Shown: positions 31,681 to 42,614 of the stretch, piece by piece
Position numbering within the stretch: position 1 is the first letter of the stretch
Layout: each line of letters begins with the position of its first letter
Assembly (NCBI GenBank): GCA_000024525.1
Contig: CP001769.1
Location: 1,536,001 to 1,600,000 of the forward strand
Length of the DNA stretch: 64,000 bases
Direction of reading: 5' to 3'
Source of the DNA: Spirosoma linguale DSM 74
GTDB lineage: Bacteria; Bacteroidota; Bacteroidia; Cytophagales; Spirosomataceae
Position numbers and translations under genes: made by a program
The notes under the pieces: model-generated
The model's database searches: none
What the model was told of the DNA's origin: nothing
What the model saw: the letters and a program-made list of their open reading frames with translations, nothing else

Positions 31681-32559
31681 TCAAATAACCTCAAACAGAA
31701 TAAGTACTTCGCCCCCCAGTTCAATCTGATCGCCGTGTTGCAGCGGGTAACCCATGCCGGGAATGTCGGCGCGGTCCATGGTGCCGTCCGGATGGAAAAT
31801 CTTGGTTTTGTTGCCGCTGGCGGGAAGTCCACCGGGGTCCGCCAGTAGCGAATATTGCCGCCGGGCTGCGTCATACCGGATGGTGGCGTGTGCCCGGCTG
31901 ACGGCTCCATTGCCCGCTCCCCGTTCGGCATTAAAACCGGGGTCGTCGTCGTTCAACAGGACAATATCATTCGTTCGGACCCGTCCCGATGCCGTTTGGG
32001 TCGAATGCCCACGCCCAATGCAATAGCTGGTCTTTTGAGCCGGATCGAGTGAATAAGCATCCTGCTCCAGCTGTCCTTTCACCGTAACAAGACGAGCCAG
32101 CAGGGGCGAAGTATCCGGTCTGGTCCTATCGGGAATTAGCAGGCCCAGATTGCCGTCGCGGTAGGTGCAATCCGGTAGCGCATCCGAATAAAATGTATAG
32201 GCAAACCGCCAGTTGGCAGGCAACTGAATGTAGTTATCAGCCAGTTGCCGCACGAGTTCGCTCCGGAATTTGCCCGGCTGACTGTCCCATAAGGCAACTT
32301 TATATACATCTTCTTCTTCGTTCGTTACGCAACAGATACACAGGTTAAGGGCCGTGGGAGCGGTTTCGGGCTCGTTCTGGTACGGTCTTAACTTATCGAT
32401 GACGAACCGAAGCAAGCGGTCGCGCTGCTGCCCGGCGGGAGGTAGTCCTTTCGAAACGGGCTTCGATGTTTCTGTAGTCTGTTCCAGTGCGGGTTCCGCT
32501 TTAACGGGTTGAGCGGGTGTAAACCCGAATAAGTTTTTGACGTTATCCAGAAGGCTCAT
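31681..32559 (-). CDS. FHA-domain protein, downstream of the SEDS-PBP gene
   Basis: A 292-residue cytoplasmic protein. The N-terminal third is low-complexity linker, followed by an alpha/beta domain of unknown type (about 50-165). A forkhead-associated domain occupies about 170-292, with the phosphothreonine-binding features YCIGRG, VSRAHA and the SGNKTKI strand. FHA domains bind phosphothreonine and would dock on kinases or substrates of the kinase cluster. It is separated from the fusion gene upstream by 325 bp containing palindromic element copy 2, so it may have its own promoter or have been split from the operon. Functional analogy to actinobacterial FhaB is inference. Confidence 0.82.
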   Translation of the reverse strand: MSLLDNVKNLFGFTPAQPVKAEPALEQTTETSKPVSKGLPPAGQQRDRLLRFVIDKLRPYQNEPETAPTALNLCICCVTNEEEDVYKVALWDSQPGKFRSELVRQLADNYIQLPANWRFAYTFYSDALPDCTYRDGNLGLLIPDRTRPDTSPLLARLVTVKGQLEQDAYSLDPAQKTSYCIGRGHSTQTASGRVRTNDIVLLNDDDPGFNAERGAGNGAVSRAHATIRYDAARRQYSLLADPGGLPASGNKTKIFHPDGTMDRADIPGMGYPLQHGDQIELGGEVLILFEVI

Positions 32560-32884
32560 AATCGGTTCAGTGTATTGGCGTATCGTCCGTATCCTTTCGA
32601 GAGAAACCGCAATAAGCCGTTAAGTAACGTGAATAATGGTTAAATATCTCTGGCAATCAAGAGGGTTAAGGGCCGTAGGCACGGGATGTTTGTAGAACAG
32701 GGTGGTTGTGCACTCGACTGGCGTGCCGTAGGTACGCAACCCTTACCAATTGTTGCGTACCTACGGCACGCCAGTCGAGTGCACAACCACCCTGTTCTAC
32801 AAAGATTAGTCCGCTAAGCGGCCATTATTTACGTTAAGTACTGATTATTGGTTATTAAGTATCAACTGACCAATAACCAATAAC
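32560..32884. other. Gap within cell-wall kinase locus holding element copy 2
   Basis: This 325-bp gap separates the downstream FHA gene from the SEDS-PBP gene. It is mostly filled by the 210-bp palindromic element. The remaining 66 bp upstream of the FHA start could hold a promoter. Confidence 0.6.
32626..32835. mobile_element. 210-bp palindromic element, copy 2
   Basis: Ends: aacgtgaataatgg (32626-32639) and its near complement (32822-32835, one mismatch). Inside is a perfect 52-bp inverted repeat (32689-32740 and 32752-32803) around the same 11-nt loop as copy 1. The long non-palindromic part lies on the left here and on the right in copy 1. AAGT directly repeats on both sides (32622-32625 and 32836-32839), a possible 4-bp target duplication. 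No coding capacity. It sits between two genes of an otherwise tight cluster, so it probably inserted or expanded there. Confidence 0.75.
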
Positions 32885-35800
32885 CTAAAAACTTCCCAAA
32901 TATCCCTGCTGTTTCAGGATTGGGGCCACAATGCTGTTGGCAAGTTGAACGGCTTCTGCCGACGATTCGCCTAGTTCAATCCGAACGCTAACGACGGTAT
33001 TCGACCGGCCATCGGGCGTTGGGGCAAAAAAGACGTACCAGCCATCATTCCGCCGAACGCCCTGTACGATGCGCTCCGGCGTTCCGGTTTTACCCGCCAC
33101 CCGCGCCACGCTGATTTTAGACCGGCCTTCCGATGGGTTTGACTGGTCGATCATAAATGATTCCAGTTGTTTCGCGTAGTTAGCCTGTTTGGCTATGGGC
33201 TGCCCGGCTGGTATGGGTTGGGGCTTCCCGGCTAAATCCAGCAGGTAGCGGGAAGGCTGGAGTATTCCCTGATTGGCAATGGCCCCTGCCATACGCGCCA
33301 GTGCCGCCGGTGTGGATGTTAACTGGCCCTGCCCCCAGGCTAAGCCCGAAAATTCGCTGCGGTACCGCCGGGGGTATTGGGTGCTGTTGTACAAATTCCG
33401 GCGAATCACGAACGACGAATCGCGCCAGTGTTCGCGTATGGCGCTGCGTTCGGCGTCGGTACGGGTGTCGGAGAAGGAGTAGCCTCCCACAAAGTCTATG
33501 TTCATGCCCGTAGTCAGATACAGATCGGCCAGCTCGTTATCCAGTTTGTGGTCGTTGGCGGTACGGATGAAATACACGTTACTCGACCGGACAATGGCCT
33601 TCCGCATATCTACCGTTTCGTTGCAAGGCTCGGATTCCCGCGTGCCCCGTCGAATAATTTCTTCGCATGAAATACGGTAACTAACGTCCGAAGCCGATGA
33701 ACCAAGCTTATTGAAGGCCGCCATCGCCGTCAATATTTTGGCCGTTGAACCGGGAGCCGTGGGGTAGGTCATACCTAGGTCCCGCTCGGTTACGAGGTAC
33801 GGTAATTTCTGCCGGTCCCTGTCCGACAGTAGCATGGCATCGGGGGTTTGTAGATTAGGTAGCGGATGTACGGCCGAGGTGAGCACATCGCCCGAAGCGG
33901 CATCCAGCACGACCACCGAGATGCGCTTGTTCCGAAAACTGGATTTGGCCAGCGCATCCTGAATGGCCACCTGTAACTCGGCATTCACGCTGAGGTGGAT
34001 GTCGCGGTTTTTGGCTTTCCGTTCGGCCACTTCGCGGCTGTCGAGTCCGGCGCGTAAGGCCGGGGCCAGTTCGCTGTAATCATAGACCGACAACGTTCGT
34101 GTTTGCTGTACCGACGGGCTGAATCGGTCGGCCCGGAAATCGGTAGTGACCAGATCTGTTTTACGGGGGCGGCTGTTGAAGCCCCGTAACTCACTCAAGT
34201 GCGTGGCTTCGGCATAATACCCGTTGCTTTGCCCCCAGAAAAGTTGCGTGTTCAGATCGCCTACCCAGAAGAATAGCTGGTTGCCAAACGGGTAATACCG
34301 CTGAAGTCGTTTTTTCGTCAGGCTTTCAACGGCATCTTCTTTCAGGCCGCTCTCCTGTAGCTTTTCGAGTTGCTGCCTAACGACTTCCGGTGAACTTGCC
34401 GCCAAAACAAGCCCGTTTCGGTCGTAGATGGTACCGGCGGCTATGGCCCGCGTGAGTCGTTCGATGCGGGGGTTGTAACTGTACACCGGGTCGCCATTGC
34501 GGGTAATAACCCGGGCGGGCCGCACGATGTACTCACGACCCCGCCAACTGATGATGGGCAGTAAATGACCGATCAGCACCACAACGCCCGCCAGAAATCC
34601 GACGATACCGGCCATCAGCACGATGTCGTAATGTTTTTCGAGGTATTCGCGCTGTTCGGCCTGCCCCGGTCGGTGGGCCACGCTGAACACGGCACCCATT
34701 GCCGTGAGGTTGATGATGAGTGAAATTTTGCCGTAGCTCAGAAACGGCACGCTGATACCCGTGAGCGGTAATAAGCCAATAGAACCGCCAGCGATGATTA
34801 AAAACTGCGTTCCGGTAGCGATGGCGATACCGGCAACCAGGAAAAAACTAAACGGTTGTCCCGCCCGGCGTGCGTGCAGGAACATCCGGTGAAGCAACAC
34901 ACCAAACAGCAGAAACACACATACGACGCCTAAACCACCCAACTCTTCGCCGAGACTCGGTAGAATCATGTCGGTATGAGCGGCTGGAATAGAATTGGCA
35001 AACGCCTTGCCGAGGCCCTGCCCCGACCAGCCTCCCGATGCCAGCGCCCAGTAGCCATGTGCCAGATGGTCGCCCCCGTACACATCGTTGTTCCAGGGAT
35101 TAAGCCACATGGATTTTCGATCGGCAAGGCGGTCGCCAACGGACGGTAACTTGTCGCCAAAGGCAAACATAGCCATCACCAGCAGCAGAAGGACAGGGGC
35201 TTCGGCCAGGAGAGCCGCCCAGCCCAGCCCGGTTTTTGAACGGGCATCGCCCTTCACGAATAAATACGCAATTACCGCTCCGAGACTGAGGACGGTAGCG
35301 AGCCAGCCCGGCAGGAGCCACAACGCTACCCCATAGCCCAGGCCCGTTGCCAGCGTTAGCGGGAGATTTCCACGGGCAATGCTGTAGAAGAGCAGGAAGG
35401 TAAAGCAGACGACCAGCGCCGGGCCCATATCGCCCAGCAACAGGTACAGCAGCATGAGCAGTCCGGCACCGGCCAATGCGCCAAAGCTCACGGCAAACCG
35501 CCACCGCAAATCAGGTAATTGCCGGAGTTGCTGCTCGTTGGCAGCAAAGAAACCCGCAAAAAAGAGCAGGAGCAGGTATTTGGTTATTTCGCTGGGCTGG
35601 AAGGTAAGGCCCAGAAAAGATAGATTGACGCGTACGCCACTGCCTTCCGGTCCTGAACCCAGCAGCAGGGTAAACGCGGCCAGCCCAGCGGCTAGTACCA
35701 GCCACGTCCAGCCCGACAGCCTCACGGCGTTATGATTTCGGTACGAAAAAAGCCAGTCGTACTGCCAGGTAGCGTAGAAACGGCCAATGTTGAGTTGGGA

Positions 35801-36856
35801 TAAAACGGTCATCCCCAACAGTCCGAGTGCAATGCCCTGTACCGTTTGCCCTGCGTAAAGCATGTCCTGCAAGGGGTCCTGAATGGCGAGTAGTGTCAGG
35901 ACCGATAAGCCGGTCAGCAACATCAGAATGGGTAGGAGCAGCGGGTCGGGGCGGAAACGGCGGATTGACCAGAACAGCTGTACGGCCCAGAAAGCCAGCA
36001 GAAACCCGCCTACAATGATCCAGAACTGCCGGATAAAGGTATCCGGGTTACGAACGGTAAGGGCATGATCGGTTTTTAACTGGCTGTATACGGTCGACCC
36101 AATCAGCCGGAGCTGATGCGGACGCGCGGTAAAGCGTACATCCTGATTGCCGCTGAGGTTCGATGTGCCTTTGCGGCTACCGAACTCAAATCCGGGCTTT
36201 AACGGAACGACACTATAGCCTGACCCTGCCTTCAAGCCGGTAAAGGTGAATTTTCCGTCGGCATCGGTACGGGCATAAATGTATCGGTCGGCCAGGGTAT
36301 CCGGCTGGGCGGTGGCGGGGTGGCGTTTCAGCTGAACCAGCACGCCCGACATCGGTTCGTCGTCATGGGTGACCTCCCCGCTGAAAGCTGCCGAGCCGCT
36401 GCCGGTGTTTACGCTGGATGGGTAGGTTTTGGGGTTCGTTAGCTCCCGGTTATACAATACCGAGTCGAAGCCCATTTGCTGTCGGGATAGCCGAAGACGG
36501 CTCTGAAAGTCGGCCCCGCCAATGCGGCTGCGCCATTTTACCGGGGCTACTATCGAAAACTGACGCTTGTTTATAGCCCCCAGATTATCGAGTGTCTGGT
36601 TCTGAAGTAGTTTGGCAGGGAGCGAGTCGGCAACGAGGGTAACGTCTTTCGGGTCTGCGTAATAATTACCGGTGGTCAGGAGTCGTTCAATAGCGGCCGA
36701 TTTCAGGTCTGTTGTCAGGTTGAGTGCCTGCCCGCTGGCATACGCTTGTTTTGCCTGATCAAGGGCTGGTCGGAAGTTGGTGTACAGCCGATAAAACAGT
36801 AGCAACAGCATGACCGATGCGATAGGCAAATACAAGCGTTCGGTGAGTGATTTCAT
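32885..36856 (-). CDS. SEDS glycosyltransferase-PBP transpeptidase fusion
   Basis: A 1323-residue inner-membrane protein joining two normally separate cell-wall enzymes. Order: N-terminal helix (about 8-26); a periplasmic region with a carboxypeptidase-regulatory-like beta domain (about 150-245); a RodA/FtsW-type multi-helix domain (about 275-735) with catalytic Asp629 in HTDMILPSLGEELG; another helix (about 757-783); then a class B penicillin-binding protein: dimerisation region (about 785-1000) and transpeptidase with Ser1037-T-A-K1040, S1091-S-N1093 and K1256-T-G. RodA/FtsW polymerise lipid II and the PBP crosslinks it. It starts 32 bp after a Ser/Thr kinase gene. A sequencing fusion is unlikely because the linker contains a clean helix and long in-frame sequence. 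Confidence 0.9.
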   Translation of the reverse strand: MKSLTERLYLPIASVMLLLLFYRLYTNFRPALDQAKQAYASGQALNLTTDLKSAAIERLLTTGNYYADPKDVTLVADSLPAKLLQNQTLDNLGAINKRQFSIVAPVKWRSRIGGADFQSRLRLSRQQMGFDSVLYNRELTNPKTYPSSVNTGSGSAAFSGEVTHDDEPMSGVLVQLKRHPATAQPDTLADRYIYARTDADGKFTFTGLKAGSGYSVVPLKPGFEFGSRKGTSNLSGNQDVRFTARPHQLRLIGSTVYSQLKTDHALTVRNPDTFIRQFWIIVGGFLLAFWAVQLFWSIRRFRPDPLLLPILMLLTGLSVLTLLAIQDPLQDMLYAGQTVQGIALGLLGMTVLSQLNIGRFYATWQYDWLFSYRNHNAVRLSGWTWLVLAAGLAAFTLLLGSGPEGSGVRVNLSFLGLTFQPSEITKYLLLLFFAGFFAANEQQLRQLPDLRWRFAVSFGALAGAGLLMLLYLLLGDMGPALVVCFTFLLFYSIARGNLPLTLATGLGYGVALWLLPGWLATVLSLGAVIAYLFVKGDARSKTGLGWAALLAEAPVLLLLVMAMFAFGDKLPSVGDRLADRKSMWLNPWNNDVYGGDHLAHGYWALASGGWSGQGLGKAFANSIPAAHTDMILPSLGEELGGLGVVCVFLLFGVLLHRMFLHARRAGQPFSFFLVAGIAIATGTQFLIIAGGSIGLLPLTGISVPFLSYGKISLIINLTAMGAVFSVAHRPGQAEQREYLEKHYDIVLMAGIVGFLAGVVVLIGHLLPIISWRGREYIVRPARVITRNGDPVYSYNPRIERLTRAIAAGTIYDRNGLVLAASSPEVVRQQLEKLQESGLKEDAVESLTKKRLQRYYPFGNQLFFWVGDLNTQLFWGQSNGYYAEATHLSELRGFNSRPRKTDLVTTDFRADRFSPSVQQTRTLSVYDYSELAPALRAGLDSREVAERKAKNRDIHLSVNAELQVAIQDALAKSSFRNKRISVVVLDAASGDVLTSAVHPLPNLQTPDAMLLSDRDRQKLPYLVTERDLGMTYPTAPGSTAKILTAMAAFNKLGSSASDVSYRISCEEIIRRGTRESEPCNETVDMRKAIVRSSNVYFIRTANDHKLDNELADLYLTTGMNIDFVGGYSFSDTRTDAERSAIREHWRDSSFVIRRNLYNSTQYPRRYRSEFSGLAWGQGQLTSTPAALARMAGAIANQGILQPSRYLLDLAGKPQPIPAGQPIAKQANYAKQLESFMIDQSNPSEGRSKISVARVAGKTGTPERIVQGVRRNDGWYVFFAPTPDGRSNTVVSVRIELGESSAEAVQLANSIVAPILKQQGYLGSF

Positions 36857-36888
36857 GCAGTAATGGTTAGTAGACAGGAGGGGGGTAC

Positions 36889-38178
36889 CTACCGTATTGA
36901 ATCCTGAACGGCCGTTGAATCGGGCGTAGCCGTTGAGCCGCTATTGGGTGTTGCTGCCGGTGGTACTGGCGTGATTTCTACCGAATCTGTCGTTGTTTCC
37001 TCTTCTGATTCCGGTTCTGCTGTGGTTGCCGAGTCTCTACGAGGTACAAAATCTTCAGTCTTCAGCGAATCCCGGTCAAGGGCGGTCGAATCAACCAATG
37101 TTGAGGCTGGTGTCTCTTTATCGCGTTCTTTATAGTAAATGGCAAAGCCGATAATTAACCCGGCAACAACCACGGCCAGTGCAATCAGCCAGGTGTTTGA
37201 CTGGGCAGCAGGCTCATAGTCGGGAGTGGATTCGTAGGTTTCAGTTGGCTGCGCTACAGGTAAGGGTGCGGCCATCGTCTGCGACCGGGGTGTGGGTACG
37301 GGTGCCTGCCGAATACCAGATCGGTTAGCCTGTAAAAGCTCAACATTTGCCTGGCCGAGTAGCAACGCCAGCTCGGTAATGTCGCTCAGCCGTTGGGCCG
37401 GGTCTTTTACGAGTGTCCAGTCAATGAGGGTTGTCAGGCTTGGCGGCAGGTATTGGCCCGATGGCAATACCAGAGCCGGTGGTTCTGTTCGCAGTACCTG
37501 CCCCATGAAGGTGGCAATACCGGCGCTGTCGGCCATTGAGAACGGCACTTTACCCATCAGGCATTCGTAAAAAACGACGCCCAGCGAGTAGTAATCTGTA
37601 GCTACGTCTACCCCTCTGGGGTTGTCGAATTGCTCGGGCGAGGCATATTCATAGGTCATCAGCGACTGCCCTGTCATGGTCTGCGTTTGCTCCCGTAGTC
37701 GGGCTACGCCAAAATCGGTTAGTAAAAAATGCAGTTCGCCACTGGGCAGAGGGCGGTACAGGATATTCTCGGGTTTTATGTCGCGGTGGATAATCCCCTG
37801 CGGGTGAATGGCGTGGAATGCTTCGGACATCTGTAAACCTAACCGAATGGTGGTAGCAACCGGCAATTGCCCCTGTTCCTGAATGAGTGTCCGCAGGTTG
37901 CCGCCTTCTACCCACTCCATCACAATGAACGGGAGGGGCATATCCAGTTGAACTTCCCGTACCCGCACAACATTTGGGTGACGGATACTGGTCATAATTT
38001 CGGATTCGACCCGAAACCGGCGAAGGGTTTCCGGGTCGGTATTTAGGGTAAAATGCTTGATGGCTACTAAATCGCCCGAAGCCAGATGCCGCGCTTTCAA
38101 TACGCGGGCATTGGATCGACCGAGTTCGCCTATGATCTCATAACCCGGGAAATGGGTGTTGACGCTTACAGTTGGCAT
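36889..38178 (-). CDS. Transmembrane Ser/Thr protein kinase 2
   Basis: A 429-residue Hanks-type kinase. Kinase domain about 10-275: VAIKHF (ATP-anchoring Lys), HRDIKPEN with catalytic Asp133, DFGVARL, and SPEQ in place of APE. The glycine loop is degenerate (LGRSNARVLKA instead of GxGxxG). A linker is followed by one membrane helix (about 327-348) and a short, acidic Ser/Thr/Pro-rich extracytoplasmic tail (about 349-429) with no PASTA repeats. It is a close paralogue of the kinase encoded 10 bp upstream. Position between that kinase and the SEDS-PBP fusion suggests it phosphorylates cell-wall machinery or FHA partners, as PknA/PknB do in Actinobacteria; this is inference. Confidence 0.92.
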   Translation of the reverse strand: MPTVSVNTHFPGYEIIGELGRSNARVLKARHLASGDLVAIKHFTLNTDPETLRRFRVESEIMTSIRHPNVVRVREVQLDMPLPFIVMEWVEGGNLRTLIQEQGQLPVATTIRLGLQMSEAFHAIHPQGIIHRDIKPENILYRPLPSGELHFLLTDFGVARLREQTQTMTGQSLMTYEYASPEQFDNPRGVDVATDYYSLGVVFYECLMGKVPFSMADSAGIATFMGQVLRTEPPALVLPSGQYLPPSLTTLIDWTLVKDPAQRLSDITELALLLGQANVELLQANRSGIRQAPVPTPRSQTMAAPLPVAQPTETYESTPDYEPAAQSNTWLIALAVVVAGLIIGFAIYYKERDKETPASTLVDSTALDRDSLKTEDFVPRRDSATTAEPESEEETTTDSVEITPVPPAATPNSGSTATPDSTAVQDSIR

Positions 38179-38188
38179 TGGTAGTTTA

Positions 38189-39742
38189 TTAAAACGACTC
38201 AGATTGGGATGAAGTCAGGGAATCGGTAGTCGGTGGAATATCCGGCGACTCGTAACTCGTTACTTTACAGGTTACGCGCGTTCCTCGGTCACTGTCCGGA
38301 GCCGACTTGGATGGTGATGAATTTGGCTCCACCAGATTGAAATACACTTTTTCGCTTTTATACAGACCACCGTTCTCCTTGTAATAGTTCACCTGAACTA
38401 CTACGTAAGTAAACGACAATCGGGTTGGATTAGTCAATTGAATCTGCAAATGTTTGATGCCGCCAAATAAGCCGACCTTGAAATCAGTTGCTTTTGCCCG
38501 AACGCTTCTCACCGCCCTAAGCGCTTCCTTACGAAGTTGCTCTTGCCGACGAGCTTCCTCTTCCTGCTGTCTGATTCGGGCGGCAGCGGTGTCTAAAGTG
38601 GTTGTTGCGGCAGGATTTTGGGCGGTAGCTGGTTCGGCCTGAAAGGAGTTGCTTTCCGGCTTCGGGTCGGGCTTCGCCGTAATGTAATACACTCCCGCCA
38701 GAATCAGGACCACAAAGGCCGCGAAGGCCAGAATCCGGCTGGTACCAACTCCTTTTGATGGGCCAGGCTCCGGTCGGGGAGAAACATGGGCTGTTTGTAG
38801 GGAGGGTGCTGACATGCCGGGTTTATTCAGCACGTCCGGTTTCGAGGCCGCTACAACTGGGGTCGCTGCGGCAGACCGGTTCGACCGGCCGGCTTCCAGA
38901 TAAGCCAGTTCGGCCTGTTTGAGTAGCCAGGTCAACTCATCCGGGTCGTTCAGCCGCTCGGCGGGGTTCTTCCTGAGCAGACTTTCCAGCACGGGCGTAA
39001 ACAGGCCCAGCGACTGGCCATTCGCCGAGACGGTCAACGGGGGCGGGGCATCGGTGAGTACCTTGTTCATAAAAGTAACGATACCCGAATGATCGCTCAT
39101 GGCAAACGGGACTTTACCCGTCAGGCATTCGTACAGTACAACGCCCAGCGAATAGTAATCCGTAGCAGTGTTGACGCCTTTGGGGTTGTTAAACTGTTCG
39201 GGAGAAGCATACTCGTAGGTCATCAGCGACTGCCCCGTGAGCGTATTTGACTGTTCGTGCAAACGAGCCACGCCAAAATCAGTCAGCAGAAAGTGCAGTT
39301 CACCGCTGGGTAGGGGCCGGTAAAGAATGTTATCCGGTTTTATATCGCGGTGGATAATCCCCTGCGGATGAATGGCCCTGAACGCGCTGGCCATTTGCAG
39401 CCCGAGCCGAATGGTGGTTGGAATGTCGAGGTGCCCCTGTGCTTTGAGAAGGTCGCAGACGCTCCCGCCTTCGATCAGCTCCATAACAATAAAGGGCAGC
39501 TCAGCCTCCAGCTGCACCTCCCGGACTTTCACAATATTGGGGTGGGCAATGCTGGTCATGATGGCCGATTCCCGCTGAAATCGACGGAGGGTTTCGGCAT
39601 CGGTATTCAGTGCGAAGTGTTTGATTGCGACCAACTCGCCCGTATCCAGGTGACGTGCCTTGAGAATTCGGGCATTGCTGCGGCCCAGCTCACTCAAAAT
39701 TTCGTAGCCTGGAAACTGGGTGTTAAAGCGCACGGTAGTCAT
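38189..39742 (-). CDS. Transmembrane Ser/Thr protein kinase 1
   Basis: A 517-residue Hanks-type kinase. Kinase domain about 10-275 with VAIKHF, HRDIKPDN (catalytic Asp133), DFGVARL and SPEQ; the glycine loop is LGRSNARILKA, degenerate like that of its tandem paralogue. One membrane helix lies about 334-354. The extracytoplasmic part (about 355-517) has a short Gln/Arg-rich helix and then a beta-rich domain (DFKVGLFGGIKHLQIQLTN ... SFTYVVVQVNYY) unlike PASTA, which could sense a ligand or protein. The start codon overlaps the phosphatase stop by 1 bp (ATGA-type), so the two are translationally coupled. Confidence 0.92.
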   Translation of the reverse strand: MTTVRFNTQFPGYEILSELGRSNARILKARHLDTGELVAIKHFALNTDAETLRRFQRESAIMTSIAHPNIVKVREVQLEAELPFIVMELIEGGSVCDLLKAQGHLDIPTTIRLGLQMASAFRAIHPQGIIHRDIKPDNILYRPLPSGELHFLLTDFGVARLHEQSNTLTGQSLMTYEYASPEQFNNPKGVNTATDYYSLGVVLYECLTGKVPFAMSDHSGIVTFMNKVLTDAPPPLTVSANGQSLGLFTPVLESLLRKNPAERLNDPDELTWLLKQAELAYLEAGRSNRSAAATPVVAASKPDVLNKPGMSAPSLQTAHVSPRPEPGPSKGVGTSRILAFAAFVVLILAGVYYITAKPDPKPESNSFQAEPATAQNPAATTTLDTAAARIRQQEEEARRQEQLRKEALRAVRSVRAKATDFKVGLFGGIKHLQIQLTNPTRLSFTYVVVQVNYYKENGGLYKSEKVYFNLVEPNSSPSKSAPDSDRGTRVTCKVTSYESPDIPPTTDSLTSSQSESF

Positions 39743-41190
39743 CAGGGACGCAGGGGTTTAGTCGGAGCCGGAACGGGAGCCGATTGCTTCTGTACAGAAA
39801 CTGTAACGGTGGTGTTCAGGCAGGTGTCCTGCCTGATAGCCGCCCGAACGGGAATACCGACTTGCTTGAAATATACGTTTTTTAGTTGAAGGATCGCGTT
39901 GCCATCGGTTTCAATTCCCGTATCGAAACCGCTGATAACCAGATTGCCCAGGTCGACGGCACCGTGCCGGTTCACGCGCATGGCTACCCTGGCGTTGGCC
40001 GTATCGGCAGGCATGAGAACGGTCAGCCGGTTGCTTCCCAACACAGCCAGCAACGAATCGGTGAGCAGGAGCGGCTGGTTGATGCGAAGGGTATCATCGG
40101 TCAGTACCAGCCGATGGTCGGTGCTTCGATAGGCCGCCTGCACCAGGGAGTCGATTTTAGGGGTGGCTGGTACGGTCAAGTCAACCGTATCGGCCGTTGA
40201 TTCGGCTGTGTTCAGGCTATCGGAGGGGATGAAGGTGGTTTTCGATGGCCAGGATTGATACCAGTAAATACCACCCGCCAAACACAGAAGGACAATGATC
40301 ATAGCAAGCCACCGACCTGTCGACGACTGCTTAACCGGCTCTGGCTTTACGGGTTCCGCAACCGGAGATACCGTCGGTTTATGGGCTCTGGCCGGGGGAA
40401 TGGCAGCACTCGCTTCGGTAACGGCAGGTTCGTTCGCTGCTGTGTTGTTGCGGGCCAGTACAACGGTAATGTTATCGTTGCCGCCCTGCTGATTGGCCAC
40501 CCGGATTAGTTCGGATAGTTGCTTGTCTAACGAAACGTTTTGATTCAGGATCGCTTTTATCTGAGCCTGCGTAATCATATCCGTCAGGCCGTCGCTGCAC
40601 AATAGCAGTTGATCGCCCGGCAGAAACGTTGTCTCCCCCGATTCCAGAAAATCAGGATCATCGACCCGGTGCGTAGCCATACCCACTTCGCGCAGAATTT
40701 CGTTACGGCGGGGGTGAGCCATCGCTTCGGCTTCGGTCAATTCATTGGCGTCTTCCCGAACACCTACCAGGGAGTGGTCATGCGTGAGTTTGGTCAGCTC
40801 ACCCCGCCGGTAGCGATACAGCCGCGTATCGCCCACGTGAGCGTAGTACAGCTTATTGGTACTGATATCGGCCAGAGCGGCTGTTAATACGCAGCACATC
40901 TGTCCCAGCTTAAGGTCTTGCTGGCGTTGTTCGTTGATTTGGTTATTAGCAAATACAACCGCTTCGCGCAGCATAGACAAGGGGTCGCCATTGGGTGTTG
41001 CCATGTAGCGTTCAATGGCTTCCCGGGCAATAGCGGCAGCCCGGTCGCCCCCGGCATAACCGCCCACACCATCAATTACTGCCAGTAGTGCGTTCGACTC
41101 CGACCAGAGTGGTGTGCAGATAAAGGTGTCTTGATTGTCCTTTCTGCGTTGGCCAACATCCGTTAAGCCGGCGATTAGTAAGTCATTCAT
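39742..41190 (-). CDS. Transmembrane PP2C-type Ser/Thr phosphatase
   Basis: A 482-residue PPM-family phosphatase. Catalytic domain about 1-245 with metal-binding motifs RRKDNQD, VIDGVGG, HVGDTRLYRY, CSDGLTDM and GGNDNITVVLA. A Pro-rich linker is followed by a membrane helix (about 292-313), and an extracytoplasmic domain (about 335-470) with repeating beta-strand turns (LTVLMPADTANARVAM ... VDLGNLVISGFDTGIETDG) suggestive of a small beta-helix. It would dephosphorylate the two kinases and their substrates, like PstP. It overlaps the kinase 1 start by 1 bp and lies 71 bp after the microprotein gene. Confidence 0.92.
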   Translation of the reverse strand: MNDLLIAGLTDVGQRRKDNQDTFICTPLWSESNALLAVIDGVGGYAGGDRAAAIAREAIERYMATPNGDPLSMLREAVVFANNQINEQRQQDLKLGQMCCVLTAALADISTNKLYYAHVGDTRLYRYRRGELTKLTHDHSLVGVREDANELTEAEAMAHPRRNEILREVGMATHRVDDPDFLESGETTFLPGDQLLLCSDGLTDMITQAQIKAILNQNVSLDKQLSELIRVANQQGGNDNITVVLARNNTAANEPAVTEASAAIPPARAHKPTVSPVAEPVKPEPVKQSSTGRWLAMIIVLLCLAGGIYWYQSWPSKTTFIPSDSLNTAESTADTVDLTVPATPKIDSLVQAAYRSTDHRLVLTDDTLRINQPLLLTDSLLAVLGSNRLTVLMPADTANARVAMRVNRHGAVDLGNLVISGFDTGIETDGNAILQLKNVYFKQVGIPVRAAIRQDTCLNTTVTVSVQKQSAPVPAPTKPLRP

Positions 41191-41261
41191 TCGAAACGAA
41201 AAAAGGGTCAGATATGTGGTTCAGTGCTACTACAACTCTCCCAATACCGGTTAGTTTGGTT

Positions 41262-41345
41262 TTAACGGGGCAAGTCCTGAAAATGCCTGAACACCAGATA
41301 GAGGACAAATACAAACAGGAGTAGAACAAGGAGAAAATCGATCAT
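41262..41345 (-). CDS. 27-residue membrane microprotein in kinase operon
   Basis: A complete ATG-to-TAA frame of 27 codons. Residues 2-19 form one very hydrophobic helix (IDFLLVLLLFVFVLYLVF), followed by a short polar tail RHFQDLPR. It begins 4 bp after the stop of the first FHA gene and ends 71 bp before the phosphatase ATG, all on the same strand, so it fits translational coupling. Single-helix microproteins often regulate membrane enzymes; here possible partners are the kinases, phosphatase or SEDS-PBP fusion. No family known to me. Confidence 0.6.
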   Translation of the reverse strand: MIDFLLVLLLFVFVLYLVFRHFQDLPR

Positions 41346-41349
41346 GGCG

Positions 41350-42363
41350 TCAGAAGTTGCGCTGGAAATGAAGAGTTACCATGCTGTTGAGCAGGATCTG
41401 GGCTTTATCGGGTAAGTCAAGCCATTGAGGATTAGCTGGTTCGCTTCGGGCTATGAGGTGCTCGTTGACCCGGGTTTCGTTGCGGCTGAAAGAGGCAATC
41501 TGAAACGAGTGCGTCGAGTCATTATACCGAATCCGGGCATGTGGGTTGGACACGTAGGCCGATTCGAGCAGCAGGTAGTTCGGGAAGTGTTGATTGTCGG
41601 GTTCTTTACGGGCAACCACAATTTCCCGGTCACGCATTAGATAAGTGTCTTCCTTATTCAGCTCGGCAATGTAAAAGCTGATCTGCGCCAATCCCGCATC
41701 GATACTACGGGGCAGAGGAGCGGCTGCGGGGGCCACTCGCAATGGTACGCTGACCGGTGCCTGCCCAGCAGTAGTTACCGGGCTGTCGAAATTGAACTTC
41801 ACCACAAAGGCGCCGGGCTCACGGAAATCAATATGCTGAAAAGCATGAACATCGACGTCAACTTTTTCGTACAGGTTCGTTTGTTTTACCCGGCGGGTTA
41901 CATTTACTTTTTCGGCAGCGACACCGGCGGGGCCATTACCGGGTAGAATACCCGTTAATGCGCCGATAACTTTTAACTCGGTAGGACCGACCGGCTCACC
42001 GTTGAATTCCTGACCGGCTCCAAACTTGAAAAACCAACTCGACGCCACCGGCGATACCCGGCCATATTGACTCTTGTGCGAATCAATAATGGCTTTAAAG
42101 GCCTCAACCGCTTCGTTGACCACGACAGGAAAGGCGTTTTGCCGCTCTTCGTAAGTGTCGGGGTGCATAATGATCAGGAAGTGAGCATTGAACAGTAAAC
42201 TTGTTCCGAAAGACTCCCGGTGCAATGAGTCTTCAAAGCTGGCGATCAGTTCGTCCAGAATGCGTTTGTTGGTAACGGTAGATGTGGGACGGGTATCGGT
42301 TTGGCTGGGTGGTATTATCAGGCTACTTAATTTACCGAGCCAACCACCGGGCTTATTTGCCAT
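41350..42363 (-). CDS. FHA-like protein at head of kinase operon
   Basis: A 337-residue cytoplasmic protein. The N-terminal domain (about 30-150, IASFEDSLHRESFGTSLLFNAHF..IIMHPDTYEERQ) is of a type I do not recognise but in architecture recalls the N-terminal domain of actinobacterial FhaA. The middle is a linker. The C-terminal third (about 225-335) is a divergent FHA domain: REIVVARK, SNPHARIRY (the SxxH core) and ETRVNEHLI in place of the usual NG turn. It would bind phosphothreonine peptides. First gene of the probable operon reading down to 32885; upstream are two palindromes. Confidence 0.68.
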   Translation of the reverse strand: MANKPGGWLGKLSSLIIPPSQTDTRPTSTVTNKRILDELIASFEDSLHRESFGTSLLFNAHFLIIMHPDTYEERQNAFPVVVNEAVEAFKAIIDSHKSQYGRVSPVASSWFFKFGAGQEFNGEPVGPTELKVIGALTGILPGNGPAGVAAEKVNVTRRVKQTNLYEKVDVDVHAFQHIDFREPGAFVVKFNFDSPVTTAGQAPVSVPLRVAPAAAPLPRSIDAGLAQISFYIAELNKEDTYLMRDREIVVARKEPDNQHFPNYLLLESAYVSNPHARIRYNDSTHSFQIASFSRNETRVNEHLIARSEPANPQWLDLPDKAQILLNSMVTLHFQRNF

Positions 42364-42526
42364 GTGCAGACTGTTTTGGGAGGGATTGTCCTTCTATAAA
42401 CGTCAACTATGATGGCTTTCTTTAGTTTGGTGGTCGGAAAATTTATTACTGATACGCTTGCCGGGGTATTCCCTCCTAATTCTGAGCTTTCCGACTGGAG
42501 ATACCTGCTGTGTTTTTGAAACATAG

Positions 42527-42599
42527 GACTTTCGTTTAGACCCGTGCCACGATTCCTATAACTCACGAGGGAACCGTGGCACGGGTCTAAACGAAAGTC
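42527..42599. repeat. 25-bp inverted repeat
   Basis: Perfect arms 42527-42551 and 42575-42599 around a 23-nt loop. The arms read gactttcgtttagacccg then tgccacg. It is immediately upstream of the mini element and unrelated to it in sequence. Possible terminator of the GH20 transcript or an independent repeat. Confidence 0.75.
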
Positions 42600-42614
42600 A
42601 TAAAACTACAAGAA

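Follow-up and report, generated by a model that had tools for sequence, protein, structure and literature searches.

A fused SEDS-class B penicillin-binding protein encoded with a putative Ser/Thr phosphorylation circuit in Spirosoma linguale: a probable Bacteroidota offshoot of the old module behind the actinobacterial cell-wall operon

We analysed a 64,000-nucleotide stretch of the Spirosoma linguale DSM 74 genome (CP001769.1, positions 1,536,001-1,600,000 of the forward strand), hereafter called the window, in whose positions all parts are given. Its minus strand carries genes for an FHA protein (FHA1), a 27-codon membrane gene, a PP2C phosphatase, two transmembrane kinases (K1 and K2), a fusion of a SEDS domain with a class B penicillin-binding protein (PBP), and a second FHA protein (FHA2). 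This gene set on one strand had been read in an earlier examination of the sequence, hereafter the original prediction, and was confirmed by reading frames and domain matches. FHA1 (41350..42363, 337 aa) has an N-terminal alpha/beta region at about residues 30-135 and a C-terminal FHA domain at about 223-337; we call it FhaA-like on the basis of its open frame, its FHA fold and a link to the FhaA_N domain made through intermediate relatives and profile comparison. Four nucleotides after it begins the gene for a 27-aa single-helix membrane protein (41262..41345), recognised by conserved position and by the ratio of nonsynonymous to synonymous substitution rates (dN/dS). The PP2C Ser/Thr phosphatase follows (39742..41190, 482 aa, Pfam PP2C_2 at 2.5e-14) and consists of a catalytic domain, a single transmembrane helix predicted by hydropathy (290-313) and a C-terminal part; it scored 197 bits against the NCBIfam Stp1 model (cut-off 230). 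The Ser/Thr kinases K1 (38189..39742, 517 aa, Pfam Pkinase 3.3e-43) and K2 (36889..38178, 429 aa, Pkinase 1e-45) both contain K41, HRDIKP and DFG, and hydropathy predicts a transmembrane helix at 330-358 and 324-351, respectively. The fusion (32885..36856, 1,323 aa), identified by Pfam matches, motifs and its open frame, comprises an N-terminal part, a SEDS domain at about 300-740 (with D629) and a class B transpeptidase domain at 980-1314 (with S1037/K1040, SxN and KTG). FHA2 (31681..32559, 292 aa) combines an N-terminal alpha/beta region (about 42-141) with an FHA domain (150-292) in which GR, SRxH and N are intact.

The catalytic residues of both halves of the fusion are conserved. D629, S1037, K1040, S1091 and N1093 were kept in 81 of 81 fusions, and the lysine and last glycine of KTG in all 80 that have letters there, the middle residue being T in 74 and S in six. 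PMC10920833 describes the SEDS loop aspartate as essential. By these residues we infer that the fusion is a SEDS-class B PBP synthase with both polymerase and transpeptidase activity. According to PMC8225782, S. linguale has eight PBPs, one of them a 'FtsW/RodA/SpoVE family protein', Slin_1280, listed without a role; presumably Slin_1280 is the fusion described here. That paper also reports that attempts at gene editing in S. linguale did not succeed. As a side observation, codons 159-231 (window 36164-36382) gave a weak carboxypeptidase-regulatory-like match (24.4 bits, cut-off 32.3), which was not listed for the distant locus L140 nor for eight named acidobacterial rows.

A scan of contigs, one genome per species, yielded 212 relatives of the fusion, and the best 80 were kept as loci; the record titles of all 80 name genera that we take to be Bacteroidota. 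In the window and its loci the fusion is encoded as a single chain, except in L025 and L032, where it is split into two frames. FHA2 was found in all 80 stretches, always downstream of the fusion (at a distance of 7.6 kb in L021), PP2C in 76 and FHA1 in 75; 73 of the fetched stretches include a kinase. Several absences of FHA1, PP2C or kinase fall at contig ends; in L005 and L021 all three are missing despite about 9.9 kb of upstream sequence, and three loci, including L023, which starts at a contig end, keep only the fusion and FHA2. The commonest orders (K, kinase) were FHA1-PP2C-K-SEDSPBP-FHA2 in 24 loci and K-FHA1-PP2C-SEDSPBP-FHA2-K in 19, followed by FHA1-PP2C-SEDSPBP-FHA2-K and K-FHA1-PP2C-SEDSPBP-FHA2 in 14 each. 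From these orders we therefore regard FHA1-PP2C-SEDSPBP-FHA2 as a fixed core and the kinases as mobile. The original prediction had staked its reading on kinases and SEDS-PBP being neighbours in relatives, and the survey of gene order bore this out: the core order is kept, and most of the 80 loci have a kinase in the neighbourhood of the fusion.

Across the phylum the distribution is patchy. Among 395 evenly drawn Bacteroidota genomes the fusion was matched in 15 at E 1e-40 and the FHA1 profile in 12, ten of these at E 7e-34 or better. At E 1e-80 the fusion was matched in 37 of 150 genomes of the family and in 16 of 18 of the genus, leaving two genomes of the genus without a match. A search of the phylum also found fusions outside the window's class, whose surroundings form the loci L135-L140. 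Beyond the phylum, SEDS-PBP fusions of about 1,100 aa occur in Acidobacteriota (Bryobacteraceae and Thermoanaerobaculia; P0292, P0302, P0349 and others). Within the genus, the entire cluster, microprotein included, lies at L145 725-11281 on a 137-kb record deposited as a Spirosoma oryzicola plasmid, and two genomes (L199 and L200) contain a second fusion that is about 45% identical and is accompanied by separate copies of FHA1, the microprotein and PP2C; in L200 the opposite strand bears FHA2 and two kinases.

The ancestry of the SEDS domain was examined in a tree of 22 fusion domains (the window, 15 of the 80 loci and six further loci) and 39 references. Six references represented the operon branch, namely four from verified actinobacterial operons, one from Embleya and one from a clostridial FHA-SEDS-PBP cluster; the other 33 comprised Bacteroidota RodA and FtsW together with E. 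coli, Firmicutes, Chlamydiota, Deinococcus and other sequences. One branch separated the fusions and the operon-branch SEDS from all the rest, with support of 100/96 under LG+C20 and 100 under LG+F+R4. Of the operon's genes, the Embleya record (L188) showed just the SEDS and a kinase, so this SEDS is not part of such an operon; the grouping is unaffected. When the tree was enlarged to 34 fusions including those of Acidobacteriota (seven rows dropped, 16 proteins added), the grouping still received 100/95. Constrained trees that placed the fusions with Bacteroidota RodA, Bacteroidota FtsW or all canonical RodA were rejected by the approximately unbiased test (p-AU 3.7e-41, 2.05e-6 and 0.004, respectively). 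The fusion domain was accordingly not classed as canonical RodA (120.8 bits against NCBIfam rodA_shape, cut-off 336.7; p-AU 0.004) or as canonical FtsW (147.5 bits against NCBIfam ftsW, cut-off 337.5; p-AU 2.05e-6 for Bacteroidota FtsW), and it represents a SEDS branch distinct from both. Three features make the split look old: the fusion clade lies outside the actinobacterial SEDS, Acidobacteriota belong to it, and its stem is long. The same topology bears on the idea that the module was transferred late from Actinobacteria to Bacteroidota as an accessory trait without a fixed role. The patchy distribution, the S. oryzicola plasmid copy and the second, divergent copies in two genomes would suit such a transfer, but the position of the clade argues against it and we consider it very unlikely; transfer among lineages of Bacteroidota is more probable than a late arrival from Actinobacteria.

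A second link to the actinobacterial operon is given by FHA1, through FhaA_N (PF12401, Pfam cut-off 25 bits). FHA1 proteins at the same place in the distant loci matched this domain at 27.4 bits (L135) and 26.5 bits (L137), and below the cut-off at 19.9 (L136) and 18.4 bits (L140); it was not listed for L141, which belongs to the window's class. A family profile of FHA1 that includes the distant loci matched the N-domain of actinobacterial FhaA with probability 89.5 and score 40; none of 100 column shuffles scored above 18.7, and the reversed alignment gave 20.1. The equivalent proposal for the N-domain of FHA2 was discarded (probability 0.2 in the profile comparison). Foldseek and VIA-align searches with whole-protein models were uninformative either way, as the listed rows were taken by FHA domains and none named the FhaA N-domain. 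Alignments of 34 sequences each revealed that the two FHA proteins differ in their phosphothreonine pockets. In FHA1 of Bacteroidia the arginine is lost in 28 of 34 and the serine in 23 of 34, the window copy retaining Arg, Ser, His and Asn; in FHA2, GR, SRxH and N are retained in 34 of 34. In two distant loci FHA2 was seen to carry an N-terminal Swt1-like HEPN domain (L136 12435-13805, 90 bits; L140 11979-13253, 78 bits).

Between FHA1 and PP2C we found no transmembrane-anchored FHA protein of the FhaB kind; the place is taken by a one-helix protein, 27 aa long here and about 27-36 aa in relatives. Where FHA1 and PP2C are both present (75 loci), a hydrophobic frame of 27-36 codons occurs at or directly behind the FHA1 end in 70; it lies slightly farther off in L052, L067 and L079, continues upstream in L025, and is absent behind FHA1 in the remaining five (L027, L028, L043, L047 and L065). 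All six further loci examined (L138, where FHA1 was not detected, being excluded) have a hydrophobic frame of 22-31 codons at the same position, and the microprotein was also found in L022, L145, L199 and L200, although the annotation of L145 gives no gene for it. Its sequence consists of a hydrophobic helix followed by HFx[DN]LP in Spirosomataceae and, in the other families of the 80 loci, mostly by HFxDIK or close variants. For the window and 20 Spirosomataceae loci the median dN/dS was 0.15, with differences of 0.29, 0.11 and 0.49 at the three codon positions. In two annotated actinobacterial operons this position is occupied by fhaB, whose product has a single helix, basic residues and an FHA domain. 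The microprotein may be a reduced FhaB, a hypothesis that for so short a protein lies beyond the reach of sequence tests. We met no name for this conserved microprotein in the records examined, and the analysis brings it to light.

Among the phosphatases of the loci, the PP2C motifs are present in 75-77 of 77, and a transmembrane helix is predicted after residue 230 in 74 of 77, including that of the window. In L140 the PP2C, SEDS and PBP parts form a single chain of 1,384 aa, and the same domain set occurs in five of the 120 homologous protein clusters listed (the best 120 of 2659 matches; the other protein searches covered the best 120 of 1401 and the best 120 of 3426). Such triple fusions suggest that regulation is aimed at the synthase itself. 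We did not adopt the proposal that the phosphatase was fused twice: two groups of triple fusions stand apart in the SEDS tree, and an old fusion followed by losses is the alternative. The covalent linkage, together with the presence of FHA2 downstream of the fusion in every stretch, stands against the suggestion that the fusion is a peptidoglycan enzyme whose adjoining kinase, phosphatase and FHA genes regulate something else. That suggestion, which draws on the varying type and position of the kinases and on the three loci that keep only fusion and FHA2, appears highly improbable to us.

The kinases are more heterogeneous. Of 125 in the loci, 123 have a predicted transmembrane helix, and the catalytic loop reads HRD in 47 and HGD in 77. 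We considered whether those outside Spirosomataceae are pseudokinases and rejected this, since the VxK-type motif is present in 120, H[RG]DxK..N in 124 and DFG in all 125; the catalytic-lysine column holds another residue in 79, which appears to be an alignment shift. Pfam detected no PASTA domain in K1 or K2, which scored 196 and 187 bits against the NCBIfam PASTA-kinase model (cut-off 450). Several further observations concern the surroundings of the module. In L136 and L140 a gene for a LysM-SLT lytic transglycosylase lies just upstream of FHA1 and a kinase adjoining the module has a tail that resembles WD40 repeats by eye; L140 also encodes a sigma-54-type AAA+ protein. One kinase of L141 bears its own FHA domain. 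Elsewhere in the S. linguale genome, at C1:3585999-3590863, lies another kinase-PP2C-FHA locus, in which FHA was matched twice. Two inverted repeats flank parts of the window's locus. One, near-perfect with 55-nt arms, lies between the fusion and FHA2 (32686-32806) and has relatives at about 22 places in the genome (41 matches, both strands), for which reason it looks like a dispersed palindromic element; the other, with 33-nt arms, lies upstream of FHA1 (42524-42602) and represents a second palindrome family at about 12 places (24 matches, both strands).

Taken together, the SEDS tree with its constraint tests and FhaA_N in the relatives of FHA1 make us lean clearly, on the sequences compared, toward a common origin of the SEDS domain and FHA1 with the actinobacterial operon. 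A number of results weigh against this reading. The operon branch is represented by few sequences (n=6, four from verified operons), and the stems of both the fusions and the operon SEDS are long, which leaves some room for a shared long-branch attraction. The window's FHA1 alone gave no FhaA_N match by Pfam, and the domain was likewise absent from the families listed for 34 Bacteroidia FHA1 proteins in single-sequence scans and from the window's own genome. Without the distant loci the FHA1 profile reached a probability of only 36.6, against 37.2 for a PBP slice, one of nine unrelated controls, so that the link to FhaA_N rests on the intermediates. In the PBP tree (two class A PBPs and two fusions removed, 12 proteins added) the grouping of fusion and operon received only 80/51, and alternatives with canonical PBP2 or FtsI relatives stand (p-AU 0.21 and 0.31). 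Because PASTA is absent and kinase types differ between families, the kinase part need not share the operon's origin.

Some of these points would also fit an independent assembly, in which Bacteroidota copies of RodA/PBP2 or FtsW/FtsI were joined to kinases, a phosphatase and FHA proteins and the actinobacterial likeness is convergence. That account is compatible with the PBP tree, with the lack of a PASTA kinase and of FhaB and with the shifting kinase types, yet for SEDS it is largely refuted by the constraint tests, and both FhaA_N in the FHA1 relatives and the matching gene order oppose it; we judge it decidedly unlikely. The original prediction had left the choice between shared ancestry and independent assembly to phylogeny. 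Its actinobacterial comparison was apt, and the results lean to shared ancestry for SEDS (100/96, alternatives rejected) and, by way of distant relatives, for FHA1; the PBP half stays compatible with either history. We therefore consider it likely that the locus and the actinobacterial operon are two branches of one old module, in which genes for a SEDS protein and a class B PBP accompany those of a Ser/Thr phosphorylation circuit; in the Bacteroidota branch, polymerase and cross-linker form one chain. It is a variant and not a plain member of the operon family, having no FhaB, no PASTA kinase and a fused synthase, and it extends the module to Bacteroidota and the fusion itself to Acidobacteriota.

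The role proposed in the original prediction, a module for cell-wall elongation, fared less well. By SEDS and PBP trees the genome also encodes FtsW at 5.78 Mb and RodA at 3.88 Mb, the latter adjoining a class B PBP; a further class B PBP lies at 5.77 Mb. The fusion is thus an additional synthase. Since RodA and FtsW are provided separately with class B PBPs, and since two of the 18 genomes of the genus lack a match to the fusion, an accessory or conditional synthase fits better than an elongation module. That the fusion is instead the principal elongation synthase of the cells is unlikely in our view: its catalytic residues are intact, and its actinobacterial counterpart serves polar elongation according to PMC8262863, but RodA stands next to a class B PBP in the same genome and the fusion occurs in a minority of the phylum (15 of 395) and of the family (37 of 150), and in 16 of 18 genomes of the genus. 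Judged from gene content, the fusion is probably an accessory, phosphorylation-controlled peptidoglycan synthase and not the main elongation machine.

A working scheme can be outlined. The C-terminal parts of K1 and K2 would act as periplasmic sensors, and the kinases would phosphorylate threonines of their own, of partner proteins or of the fusion. FHA2, with its intact phosphothreonine pocket, would read this mark and recruit or gate the fusion, and PP2C, which in some relatives is covalently part of the synthase, would reset it. FHA1, its pocket mostly decayed in Bacteroidia, and the one-helix protein may form a membrane-tethered scaffold in the position of FhaA and FhaB. The output would be lipid II polymerisation and cross-linking by an extra synthase beside RodA, FtsW and their PBPs. 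More tentatively, and as a possibility to which we give clearly less than even weight, Gram-positive Actinobacteria and Gram-negative Bacteroidota may share an ancient kinase-gated peptidoglycan synthase module, whose fused synthase also occurs in Acidobacteriota. The phosphatase would then have the synthase as its direct target, which would explain the PP2C-SEDS-PBP fusions; in Bacteroidota, FhaB would have dwindled to its membrane anchor of about 27-36 residues, which tethers a mostly non-reading FhaA-like scaffold, with FHA2 taking over phosphothreonine reading. PknB-type phosphorylation control of wall synthesis has been studied as a matter of Actinobacteria and Firmicutes. Gram-negative bacteria, most of them environmental, in which polymerase and transpeptidase make up one chain would offer a simpler synthase, with a 1:1 ratio of its two parts, for studying the phospho-gating of SEDS-PBP pairs. 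Among the titles and abstract openings listed, none mentioned a Bacteroidota counterpart of the operon or a natural SEDS-PBP or PP2C-SEDS-PBP fusion, which does not prove absence; the main text of a survey of PP2C domains (PMC12088040) contains none of the terms FtsW, SEDS, RodA and transpeptidase.

Among known systems, three invite comparison. RodA-PBP2 (MrdB-MrdA of E. coli; C1:3877364 and 3878959 in the genome itself) likewise pairs a SEDS protein with a class B PBP and has the same catalytic motifs, whereas the fusion belongs to another SEDS branch (the test against Bacteroidota RodA given above), is one chain and is tied to phosphorylation genes. The FHA-SEDS-PBP cluster of Monoglobus (Clostridia; L186) groups with the operon branch in the SEDS tree and has a short FHA gene directly before SEDS and PBP; unlike in the fusion locus, its SEDS and PBP are unfused, and no phosphatase or kinase is annotated within the 19-kb stretch. 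The third is the actinobacterial fhaA-fhaB-pstP-rodA-pbpA-pknA-pknB operon, which we found in the order FhaA-FhaB-PP2C-SEDS-PBP-kinase-kinase in Tsukamurella (L142), Actinomyces oris (L187), Nocardia (L148) and Nonomuraea (L185). There rodA and pbpA are separate, FhaB stands where S. linguale has a bare one-helix protein, and PknB is a PASTA kinase; the Spirosoma locus differs further in its extra FHA2 behind the PBP, in the placement of Spirosomataceae kinases between PP2C and the fusion, and in its Gram-negative host with separate RodA and FtsW. What the two have in common is a related SEDS branch, a leading FHA protein, with FhaA_N in the operon and, on this side, in distant relatives, and after it a PP2C phosphatase that, like PstP, has one predicted transmembrane helix; in Sphingobacteriales and Chitinophagaceae loci the likeness extends to the whole succession of FHA, phosphatase, SEDS, PBP and then kinase.

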